40,444 bases of DNA, taken from Candidatus Bathyarchaeum sp. (GTDB lineage: Archaea > Thermoproteota > Bathyarchaeia > Bathyarchaeales > Bathyarchaeaceae). A program made the position numbers and the translations under genes. The notes under the pieces are model-generated. The model was not told the DNA's origin. It saw only the letters and a program-made list of their open reading frames with translations, and searched no databases. This document shows positions 16,744 to 36,816 of the stretch, piece after piece. Location of the stretch: NCBI GenBank assembly GCA_026014565.1, contig JAOZIB010000019.1, positions 1,782-42,225 of the forward strand, written 5' to 3'. Position 1 is the stretch's first letter, and the number at the start of each line of letters is the position of its first letter.

Positions 16744-16863
16744 TGGTGCGGGGAACGGGATTCGAACCCGTGGAGGCCTGCGCCAGAGGATCTTAAGTCC
16801 TCCCCCTTTTCCTAGGGGATCTATGTTTGACCCACTATTTAGACCTGGCTCGGGTATCCCCGC
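16744..16863 (-). tRNA. tRNA-Leu(UAA) with a 31-nt D-loop insertion (probable intron)
   Basis: Acceptor GCGGGGA/TCCCCGC, anticodon stem GAGGA/TCCTC with loop CTTAAGA (anticodon UAA), long variable arm, T-stem ACGGG/CCCGT with loop TTCGAAT, discriminator A at 16747 and encoded CCA at 16744-16746. Between the D-loop sequence AGCCAGGTC and the closing AAAAGGGG lie about 31 extra nucleotides (16811-16841). Deleting them gives the standard archaeal tRNA-Leu D-arm, so they are best read as a non-canonical intron. Exons are 16842-16863 and 16747-16810. Confidence 0.88.
16811..16841 (-). other. Probable D-loop intron of tRNA-Leu(UAA)
   Basis: The insert folds as GGGTC/GATCC around loop AAACATA. CCTA at its 3' part can pair with exon CAGG (three pairs plus a C-A mismatch), with GG|A as a 3-nt bulge. 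The 5' bulge would be about 10 nt, so this is only a relaxed bulge-helix-bulge. Boundaries may shift by one nucleotide because of the AAAA run. Confidence 0.6.
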
Positions 16864-16897: not shown

Positions 16898-17043
16898 ATG
16901 TTACTTGCCCCAACAACTACAAACGAACCAACAATGCCAGAATTTGTAGCAATAATTGGAATTTACGTGCCTTTGTTTGGCGTTATGGTTATAACAGTCA
17001 ACAGCCAACAAATGTTTTGGCGGGTAACCCATGGGCGGGTATA
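16898..17043 (+). CDS. Possible 48-residue membrane peptide (doubtful)
   Basis: ATG 16898 opens a 48-codon frame with one hydrophobic segment (FVAIIGIYVPLFGVMVITV). It ends at TAG 17041-17043, inside tRNA-Arg(CCU). There is no clear ribosome-binding site. It lies between the two divergent tRNA genes, and I recognise no family. The overlap with the tRNA 5' end argues that it is chance or decaying sequence. Confidence 0.2.
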
Positions 17044-17069
17044 GAAAACTATAATGGTTTTTTACCGAA
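17042..17069 (+). other. Intron 1 of tRNA-Arg(CCU), 28 nt, position 9/10
   Basis: Bulge-helix-bulge read: outer GGG/CCT, central CGGG/ACCG (three pairs plus a terminal G-A mismatch), bulges TA|T and AA|G, inner helix AGAAAA/TTTTTT. It can alternatively fold as hairpin TATAG-AAAA-CTATA with its upstream nucleotides. The position is non-canonical, between acceptor and D-stem. Confidence 0.75.
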
Positions 17070-17091
17070 GCCTAGCATGGATAGGGCACGA

Positions 17092-17112
17092 ACAGCAAAA
17101 CTGCTGGTGTAA
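17092..17112 (+). other. Intron 2 of tRNA-Arg(CCU), 21 nt, position 29/30
   Basis: A strict bulge-helix-bulge: outer AGG/CCT, central four pairs GCAC/GTGT (one G-U), 3-nt bulges GA|A and AA|G, inner helix CAGC/GCTG with loop AAAACT. Removal joins CGA to GC, making the 5' strand CGAGC of the anticodon stem. Confidence 0.85.
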
Positions 17113-17120
17113 GCCTCCTA

Positions 17121-17138
17121 CCAAGGGAATTGGGAGAG
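17121..17138 (+). other. Intron 3 of tRNA-Arg(CCU), 18 nt, canonical position 37/38
   Basis: A strict bulge-helix-bulge: outer helix is the anticodon stem CGAGC/GCTCG (complete only after intron 2 is removed), central CTCC/GGAG, bulges TA|C and AG|A, inner CAA/TTG with loop GGGAA. Removal yields loop CTCCTAA. Confidence 0.88.
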
Positions 17139-17177
17139 AGCTCGGGGTCACGGGTTCAAATCCCGTCCCGCCCGCCA

Positions 17178-19855: not shown

Positions 19856-20434
19856 TTACTTTAAATTAAGTTCAGACAAAGAATAGTAAACAATCTCGCC
19901 CCGCCGGTTGATTACTGCCAAAACCAAGTTTTTTTTCAGGTTCTGAGTGTACCGCTGGGTTCTTGCCAGTTTTTCTAAGGTAACTGGTTGACCTTCCTGT
20001 ATGCCAAAAATCAAATGCTTGGCCGTTCCTTTGCCGTAATCTCCCCGCTCATACAAACGAAAATCAATATCCTTGCCAAAACCTTCTCGGGCTACATACC
20101 CACGGCTTCGCAGGTCCCGGTAAATTAAGTATCGAACCCATGCATCTTTGTCAACGGCTTGAAACCGTTTCAGTAAATCTTCAAAGGCAATTTTTTGGGT
20201 GGATTGGGGGTCTTTGATTTCTATGATTTCTTTGCTTAGAAGATAAAGGGCTTCACAGCTTGATAGTTCCAGTTTGTTGTTTTCGATTTTGCCGTAACCT
20301 TTTGCTGAAAGCTCCTCCTTGTCAATGGAAGAAACAGTAACAACAGTATCCGATAGCACAGCACCAACTGGAACCAAAGGCTCCTTGCTTTTTTCAGCGT
20401 CAAGCTCCTGCTTACCCAACATCAAAACCTTCAA
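19856..20434 (-). CDS. endA: tRNA-splicing endonuclease homologue (EndA family)
   Basis: Archaeal enzymes of this family cut bulge-helix-bulge motifs in tRNA and rRNA precursors. The 192-residue length matches single-repeat subunits. The C-terminal domain (about 100-192) is recognisable: YLIYRDLRSRGYVAREGF, DIDFRLYERGDYGKG with the candidate catalytic Tyr, TAKHLIFGI, and NLKKNLVLAVINRRGEIVYY with the candidate Lys. The His normally found as G-H-S/A-x-Y/F-L appears as Thr in GTAKHLIF; a His stands three residues later. It may therefore be the structural subunit of an (alpha-beta)2 enzyme, or use the displaced His. Co-directional with hisS, 10 nt apart. Confidence 0.85.
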   Translation of the reverse strand: MKVLMLGKQELDAEKSKEPLVPVGAVLSDTVVTVSSIDKEELSAKGYGKIENNKLELSSCEALYLLSKEIIEIKDPQSTQKIAFEDLLKRFQAVDKDAWVRYLIYRDLRSRGYVAREGFGKDIDFRLYERGDYGKGTAKHLIFGIQEGQPVTLEKLARTQRYTQNLKKNLVLAVINRRGEIVYYSLSELNLK

Positions 20435-36084: not shown

Positions 36085-36816
36085 CTATTGTTTTTTGTTG
36101 AGTTTAATTACAACCTCAACTGGACTGCCTTTGGGAAGCTTCAAGTTTTGTTTCCAATCCTCACCAACAGCAATAAGAGAGTAAACTCCAGAAACTTCTG
36201 CTCGAGCTTTCTTAACAAAGTTTACTAGGGCCGCTTGGGTTTCCCCTGTTTTTATCATGTCATCTACGATTAGCACGCTGTCTCGTCGTTTTATGGCGTC
36301 TTTGGGCAAATACAGTGTCAATGTGTATCCTGAATCCCGCAAAACATAGGTTTCTTCAAGAAAAGCTGGAACACCCACTTCTTTGTTACGTTTAGCGATC
36401 AGTAAATCTACGCCTAACGAGTTTGCTACCATTGTTCCTAGGGGTACACCGTCAACTGCTGCAGTCAGAACCTTTGTAACTCGACCCCCTGCAAAGGTTG
36501 CAAGGGCATGCTGGGCTGCTTGTTGCAAGATGTTATGGTCGCCAATAATCCAGGTGTTGTTGAAGTATCCTGCTTGGTTGAATTTGATTCGTCTGCGCAG
36601 TTCTGCTTTTAGGCCCACCAGTTTGGTTAGAACTTCCCAAAGTTCTTTTGCGCGTTCAGCGTTGGGTAGAACGTGGCCTTTGGCGTATCGGCTTAGAACT
36701 GTTACAGGCAGATTTGTTTTAGCGGATAATTCTCGGTAGGTGTATTCTTTTTTTGCTGTCCGGAGGAGTTCTATGGTCATTAAACGGAGTTTAAGGTCTT
36801 CTGCGTGTGTGTTCAT
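36085..36816 (-). CDS. HTH-phosphoribosyltransferase regulator (GfcR/PyrE-like)
   Basis: A 243-residue fusion. Residues ~1-60 form a DNA-binding HTH (YRELSAKTNLPVTVLSRYAKG). Residues ~85-230 form a type I phosphoribosyltransferase domain with the PRPP loop SVLIVDDMIKTGETQAAL, VDGVPLGTMVANSLGVDLL and a flexible-loop region. The architecture matches archaeal orotate-PRTase-like regulators such as GfcR, in which the enzyme fold senses PRPP or nucleotides; I infer regulation, not catalysis. ATG 36816 sits 14 nt from AAAGGG. Two TGTACACC repeats flank its TATA box. Confidence 0.85.
   Translation of the reverse strand: MNTHAEDLKLRLMTIELLRTAKKEYTYRELSAKTNLPVTVLSRYAKGHVLPNAERAKELWEVLTKLVGLKAELRRRIKFNQAGYFNNTWIIGDHNILQQAAQHALATFAGGRVTKVLTAAVDGVPLGTMVANSLGVDLLIAKRNKEVGVPAFLEETYVLRDSGYTLTLYLPKDAIKRRDSVLIVDDMIKTGETQAALVNFVKKARAEVSGVYSLIAVGEDWKQNLKLPKGSPVEVVIKLNKKQ

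Follow-up and report, generated by a model that had tools for sequence, protein, structure and literature searches.

The tRNA-Arg(CCU) gene in the window (the whole stretch of 40,444 nucleotides from Candidatus Bathyarchaeum sp. that was analyzed) raises the question how a tRNA can be matured if the splicing motif of its first intron is built on the 5' strand of its own acceptor stem. The gene is located on the plus strand at 17033-17177 and comprises four exons, namely exon 1 (nt 1-9, GGGCGGGTA, 17033-17041), exon 2 (nt 10-29, 17070-17091), exon 3 (nt 30-37, 17113-17120) and exon 4 (nt 38-73, 17139-17174), with the anticodon at 17117-17119 and an encoded CCA at 17175-17177. The exons are separated by introns of 28 nt at position 9/10 (17042-17069), 21 nt at position 29/30 (17092-17112) and 18 nt at position 37/38 (17121-17138). 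Once the introns are removed, a mature tRNA of 75 nt forms a cloverleaf with the conserved tRNA nucleotides, in which the acceptor stem (7/7), the D stem (four pairs, one of them G-U), the anticodon stem (5/5) and the T stem (5/5) are paired. Introns 2 and 3 follow the strict bulge-helix-bulge (BHB) geometry with a 4-bp center and two 3-nt bulges, and intron 1 shows three of the four central pairs. Since the mismatch of intron 1 (G7.A) is present in 14 of the 15 orthologues having a 9/10 intron, it is regarded as a feature of this intron and not as decay. A split or permuted tRNA was ruled out, as the four exons lie in order inside 142 nt. Divergent to the gene, a tRNA-Leu(UAA) gene with an intron of about 30 nt in the D arm (near position 21/22) is found at 16747-16863 on the minus strand. 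This neighbor is also kept in genome G001, and in G011 tRNA-Leu(UAA) contains an extra 37/38 intron.

The layout had already been proposed in an initial annotation made from the letters alone. An independent BHB-aware search returned the same three introns with every coordinate as its top solution, including the product length and the pairing of all stems, the strict geometry of introns 2 and 3 and the single mismatch in intron 1. The score of this layout was 31.0 compared to 26.3 for the runner-up layout. When the middle of the gene was subjected to 200 dinucleotide shuffles with the acceptor and T arm kept fixed, a mean of 22.7 (SD 1.5) and a maximum of 27.4 were obtained, and none of the 200 reached 31.0. 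As had been anticipated, ordinary scanners miss the gene: ARAGORN did not call it, and the Rfam tRNA model gave 15.5 bits, which is under the cut-off of 29. The decoding sets of such genomes are therefore probably under-called. The presence of another tRNA-Arg(CCU) had been named as an argument against the reading. None was found in the tRNA inventory, consisting of Rfam matches and weak matches parsed by hand, of the host genome (1.81 Mb, 96% complete). In this genome, the window covers positions 1782-42225 of contig C19. The HisRS of the host shares 87% identity with its counterpart in Candidatus Bathyarchaeum tardum M17C, and the tRNA gene is also present in the nearest genomes, which places the host in Bathyarchaeum. 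Altogether, the reading as a three-intron tRNA-Arg(CCU) gene is supported at the level of sequence.

The pairings of the three motifs are mutually restrictive. In the motif of intron 1 (BHB1), nt 1-3 pair with nt 11-13 and nt 4-7 with the intron, in BHB2 nt 21-23 pair with nt 31-33 and nt 24-27 with the intron, and in BHB3 nt 27-31 pair with nt 39-43 and nt 32-35 with the intron. Since BHB1 takes up nt 1-7 and 11-13, it excludes the acceptor stem and the D stem, while BHB2, using nt 21-27 and 31-33, excludes the D stem as well as BHB3 with the central helix of intron 3. Because BHB2 and BHB3 exclude each other, introns 2 and 3 would be removed one after the other. The initial annotation had gone further, stating that the anticodon stem exists only after excision of intron 2 and that intron 2 is preferably spliced before intron 3. 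This holds true for the full stem of 5 bp, but the AA at the end of intron 2 allows BHB3 a 3-bp outer helix (AGC/GCU) already before excision, so that this order is favored and not forced in this genome. In G001 and G003, intron 2 ends in T and the full outer helix of BHB3 needs intron 2 to be gone first. A stronger constraint, absent from the initial annotation, lies between intron 1 on the one hand and acceptor stem and leader on the other. The derivation of a splicing order from equilibrium folding was dropped, because strict BHBs seldom came out as the most stable structure, whichever intron was considered. The folding comparisons were limited to leader, no leader and shuffled leader, and absolute probabilities were not used for the order.

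Because BHB1 needs the 5' strand of the acceptor stem, the region upstream of the gene was inspected. At 17017-17026 of the plus strand, an element (TTGGCGGGTA) was found whose sequence is complementary to the 3' end of the same tRNA (nt 69-76, 17170-17177). It is proposed to act as a placeholder that pairs with the acceptor 3' strand during the splicing of intron 1. A conserved TATA-like element (GGTTATAACAGTCAAC, 16987-17002, plus strand) is located about 25 nt upstream of it, a position compatible with a transcript start at the element. The leader role presupposes that the predicted transcription start is not downstream of 17026, as the element would otherwise be outside the RNA.

All 15 CCU genes with a 9/10 intron showed a leader strand that resembles nt 1-7 and is able to pair with the own 3' end, while the five CCU copies without this intron showed no such strand. 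The placeholder hypothesis was formed on this set and then tested on tRNA-Arg(UCU). There, the 13 genes with a 9/10 intron (families f9 and f5; L235-L240, L242, L244-L246, L249, L251 and L257) all carry an antisense, GGGCCGCTGGG-like leader that is complementary to the 3' strands of the acceptor and T stems together, and nine genes without the intron carry no such leader. In G034, T60 is matched by an A in the leader, while most others comprise A60:U. The duplexes between leader and 3' end ranged from -11.6 to -30.9 kcal/mol in the 28 genes with a 9/10 intron and from -0.9 to -10.7 in 14 genes without it, and a further gene without it, that of G147, gave -4.6. Compared to shuffled leaders, 27 of the 28 duplexes reached p<0.05, the match of G001 being weak (p=0.116). 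The energies were fully separated in both the CCU and the UCU set (Mann-Whitney p=6e-4 and 5e-5, respectively, with the genes being related and the samples thus not independent). A pattern search for further genes yielded G146 and G154 (CCU, f7), G189 (tRNA-Arg(CCG), f13, another family of the class) as well as G040 and G046 (UCU). These five additional testable genes all have the element (p<=0.008), and G144, which is split between contigs, was left out. In total, the leader element is present in 33 of 33 testable 9/10 tRNA-Arg genes (CCU, UCU and CCG; at least five families; 32 with p<0.05), and 15 tRNA-Arg genes without the intron showed no comparable element. With regard to other archaeal classes, a narrow pattern run over 398 genomes of the phylum matched Bathyarchaeia only, together with two false matches in coding DNA.

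The influence of the leader was also observable in folding calculations. Without leader, nt 1-7 were paired to the 3' end with a probability of 1.00 in 28 of 28 genes. With the native leader, nt 1-7 were bound at 0.11 or less in 25 of the 28, while shuffled leaders mostly left them bound. At the same time, helix 1 of BHB1 increased from 0.00 to 0.65-1.00 in 14 of the 15 CCU genes, with G018 staying at 0.08. The exact central helix of intron 1 was seldom the most probable form even with leader and was regained in some genes only. This can be explained by the energy model, which penalizes BHB bulges and ignores the splicing endonuclease (EndA), and by a shifted GGUA/UACC pairing that competes. 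Within this model, the freeing of nt 1-7 is thus backed more firmly than the final BHB1 motif.

Another explanation would be that the tRNA and its introns are as described, while the GC-rich upstream element is a promoter, an initiator or another DNA element that is complementary to the 3' end by coincidence. Splicing of intron 1 would then take place either during transcription, ahead of the synthesis of the 3' strand, or through capture on EndA. The distance of the element from the conserved TATA-like box is where transcription would start, and conserved initiation signals usually sit in the 5' leader. Nonetheless, we consider this explanation possible but unlikely, since CCU and UCU genes have different elements, each matching the 3' end of the respective tRNA, and the element is absent in genes of the same family without a 9/10 intron. 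Among 35 other tRNAs of the genome that were examined, none had a leader duplex as strong as tRNA-Arg(CCU). Furthermore, simply duplicating the 5' end of the tRNA cannot give the joint complementarity of the UCU element to the acceptor and T-stem 3' strands. Co-transcriptional formation was not supported by the energy model either, in which the intron 1 motif hardly forms in leaderless nascent prefixes. An alternative first exon was ruled out as a role of the leader, as several species have no U8 after the element and the UCU genes carry GGGCCGCTGGG and not GGGCCCGTG.

For the placeholder reading, the following course is proposed. The precursor would start near 17017, and its leader strand (TGGCGGGT), which is copy-like, would pair with the tRNA 3' end and occupy the acceptor 3' strand, leaving nt 1-7 free for the motif of intron 1. 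A heterotetrameric (alpha-beta)2 EndA would cut the three BHB motifs and RtcB would join the exons. After splicing, the real 5' strand would displace the leader, the acceptor stem would form and RNase P could cut, so that splicing would precede RNase P. We regard it as probable that the gene is a functional, single-copy three-intron tRNA-Arg(CCU) spliced in this way, with the leader as placeholder strand. With a slight preference only, we extend this to the proposal that 9/10 tRNA introns require, and in Bathyarchaeia always occur with, a cis antisense leader taking the place of the acceptor 5' strand for as long as intron 1 is present. Such a leader would constitute a strand-exchange switch making splicing a precondition of RNase P maturation, a kind of element that we did not find described, in a lineage that would also exceed the three-intron record with a four-intron tRNA-Trp. 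Since genes with and without the 9/10 intron sit at different loci within one genus, element and intron may be co-inherited and not repeatedly co-gained. For the same reason, a gain of intron and leader in place could not be shown.

The splicing machinery of the host is in line with this proposal. Two EndA genes are encoded, the alpha subunit on contig C43 and a beta-type subunit in this window (19856-20434, minus strand; Pfam tRNA_int_endo and tRNA_int_endo_N), in which the catalytic His is replaced, being Thr or Ala in all aligned rows. The alpha subunit aligns with the alpha chains of Aeropyrum and Sulfolobus, and Tyr, His, Lys and the loop Lys are kept. The latter, corresponding to K44 of A. 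pernix, is invariant in every aligned Bathyarchaeia sequence. RtcB is encoded in the host genome as well. In crenarchaea, the loop lysine confers broad specificity to the (alpha-beta)2 EndA (PMC6379350). Judged from its subunit genes, the host pair has the features of the (alpha-beta)2 type and is predicted to be of broad specificity. Compared to the A. pernix enzyme with its Crenarchaea-specific loop (PMC6379350), the composition of two subunits, the alpha Y/H/K with loop lysine and the beta without catalytic His are alike, while the pair described here is encoded in Bathyarchaeia and its assembly and activity are predicted.

A comparison of orthologues, which the initial annotation had put forward as a check, showed conserved exons and introns present or absent at the same sites. 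The three introns are common to all seven congeners as well as to G011 and G019, which belong to two further genera of the same family. Named records with three introns are JARVGH010000005.1:59146-59288 (B. tardum), CP070820.1:489313-489457 and LIHK01000017.1:22384-22521. G015 and G022 contain the 9/10 and 29/30 introns, G018 the 9/10 and 37/38 introns, G017 and G041 the 9/10 intron alone, G029 and G147 the 37/38 intron alone, and G013 (two copies), G027 and G032 no intron. Since the sets thus vary among more distant relatives (none, {9}, {37}, {9,37}, {9,29} and {9,29,37}), each intron is separable. Exons were identical at 71-75 of 75 positions, while the identity of the introns was 64-90%. 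In the helices of intron 2, 98% of the cells were paired and eight compensatory (double) changes were observed, compared to 23-51% pairing when the helices were slid; the covariation score exceeded all 500 shuffles. The covariation support for the stem of intron 1 was weaker. As side observations, L108 (tRNA-Arg(CCU) of G017, contig C86) has C33 where U33 is near-universal, and its intron 1 center is fully paired. L137 (G015, C1:42307-42361) is a 5' copy of tRNA-Arg(CCU) that kept the 29/30 intron, is without the 9/10 intron and ends after the anticodon arm; it may be what is left of an integration site, or else a copy that was partly spliced.

These data bear on two further explanations. A decaying pseudogene, with CCU decoding covered by a tRNA-Arg(UCU) that is present and could read some AGG codons, is highly improbable, because the three closest congeners share the mature sequence at 100% identity, with introns differing by 10-13%, the intron stem covaries and no other CCU gene was found. 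Equally improbable is a mis-drawn layout with a different splice register or a smaller number of introns. A shift by one nt is possible for each of introns 1 and 2 with the same product, as the last nucleotide is A both in the intron and in the exon before it, but the exons are fixed by orthologues carrying two introns, one or none, the terminal T of intron 2 in G001 and G003 excludes the slid register for 29/30, and the strict BHB geometry fits the assigned sites only.

The tRNA-Arg(CCU) gene is not the most interrupted one of the genome. In tRNA-Trp(CCA) (C25, about 36138-36358; L148/L175), four introns were found at 17/17a (29 nt), 28/29 (29 nt), 37/38 (60 nt) and 43/44 (29 nt). They are common to the congeners G001, G002 and G004-G007 and to several other genomes, and since other orthologues lack exactly one or two of them, their boundaries are fixed. 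The 37/38 intron comprises C/D-like motifs. A box C/D-containing pre-tRNA-Trp intron is known in archaea, from which the host gene differs by its three further introns. tRNA-Ser(GGA) (C17:12887-13032; L042) contains three introns (D loop, 29/30 and 37/38), which also occur in other families of the order. Across the whole genome, at least 22 introns were counted in 15 of about 41 tRNA genes, some minor intron positions being approximate. The maximum stated in reviews is three introns per archaeal tRNA (PMC8450103, PMC4033280). The initial annotation had considered three-intron tRNAs as known mainly from Thermoproteales and as notable in this kind of genome. This rarity is partly superseded, since they recur in Bathyarchaeia, as seen for tRNA-Ser(GGA), and tRNA-Trp even has four.

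With the three-intron tRNAs of Thermoproteales, such as tRNA-Glu(UUC) of Pyrobaculum calidifontis and tRNA-Pro(UGG) of P. islandicum (PMC4390854), the host gene shares its three BHB introns, which occupy canonical as well as non-canonical sites, and its occurrence in archaea with an (alpha-beta)2 EndA. It differs by being found in Bathyarchaeia, where the cultivated species of the genus is an anaerobic mesophile that grows at 10-45 C with an optimum at 37 C (PMC10477458), by the antisense leader element accompanying the 9/10 intron and by the four introns of the sister gene tRNA-Trp. Nanoarchaeum equitans and Caldivirga have split tRNAs (PMC4033280) in which complementary leaders outside the mature tRNA likewise shape the BHB substrate, whereas here all exons lie in order on one predicted transcript and the leader would pair with the 3' end of the same tRNA, outside the BHB, and not with another half. 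In the open-access literature, we found no mention of introns in the tRNAs of Bathyarchaeia, of archaeal tRNAs with four introns or of such leaders. The gene itself is a known kind of tRNA gene and as such solidly supported, and the leader-intron coupling and the four-intron tRNA-Trp set it apart as a variant that merits experiments.

Three- and four-intron tRNAs are accordingly not confined to hyperthermophilic Thermoproteales and occur in the abundant, mesophilic and now cultivable Bathyarchaeia. The series of zero, one, two and three introns at fixed sites provides natural material for testing the gain and ordering of tRNA introns. The placeholder leader, if true, would explain how an intron whose motif needs the acceptor strand is spliced although few helices of the precursor are as stable as the acceptor stem, and it predicts an enforced order of splicing and 5' maturation.

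Two minor observations were made for other tRNA genes. A CAU tRNA (L024, C10:43270-43373) contains an apparent intron in the variable region. In addition, repeated 3' ends of tRNA-Thr(GGT), tRNA-Cys and a tRNA-Val-like gene were found (L008, L044, L045 on C35, L046 at C27:101207 and L040 at C21:1094), which look as if left by elements integrated in tRNA genes.
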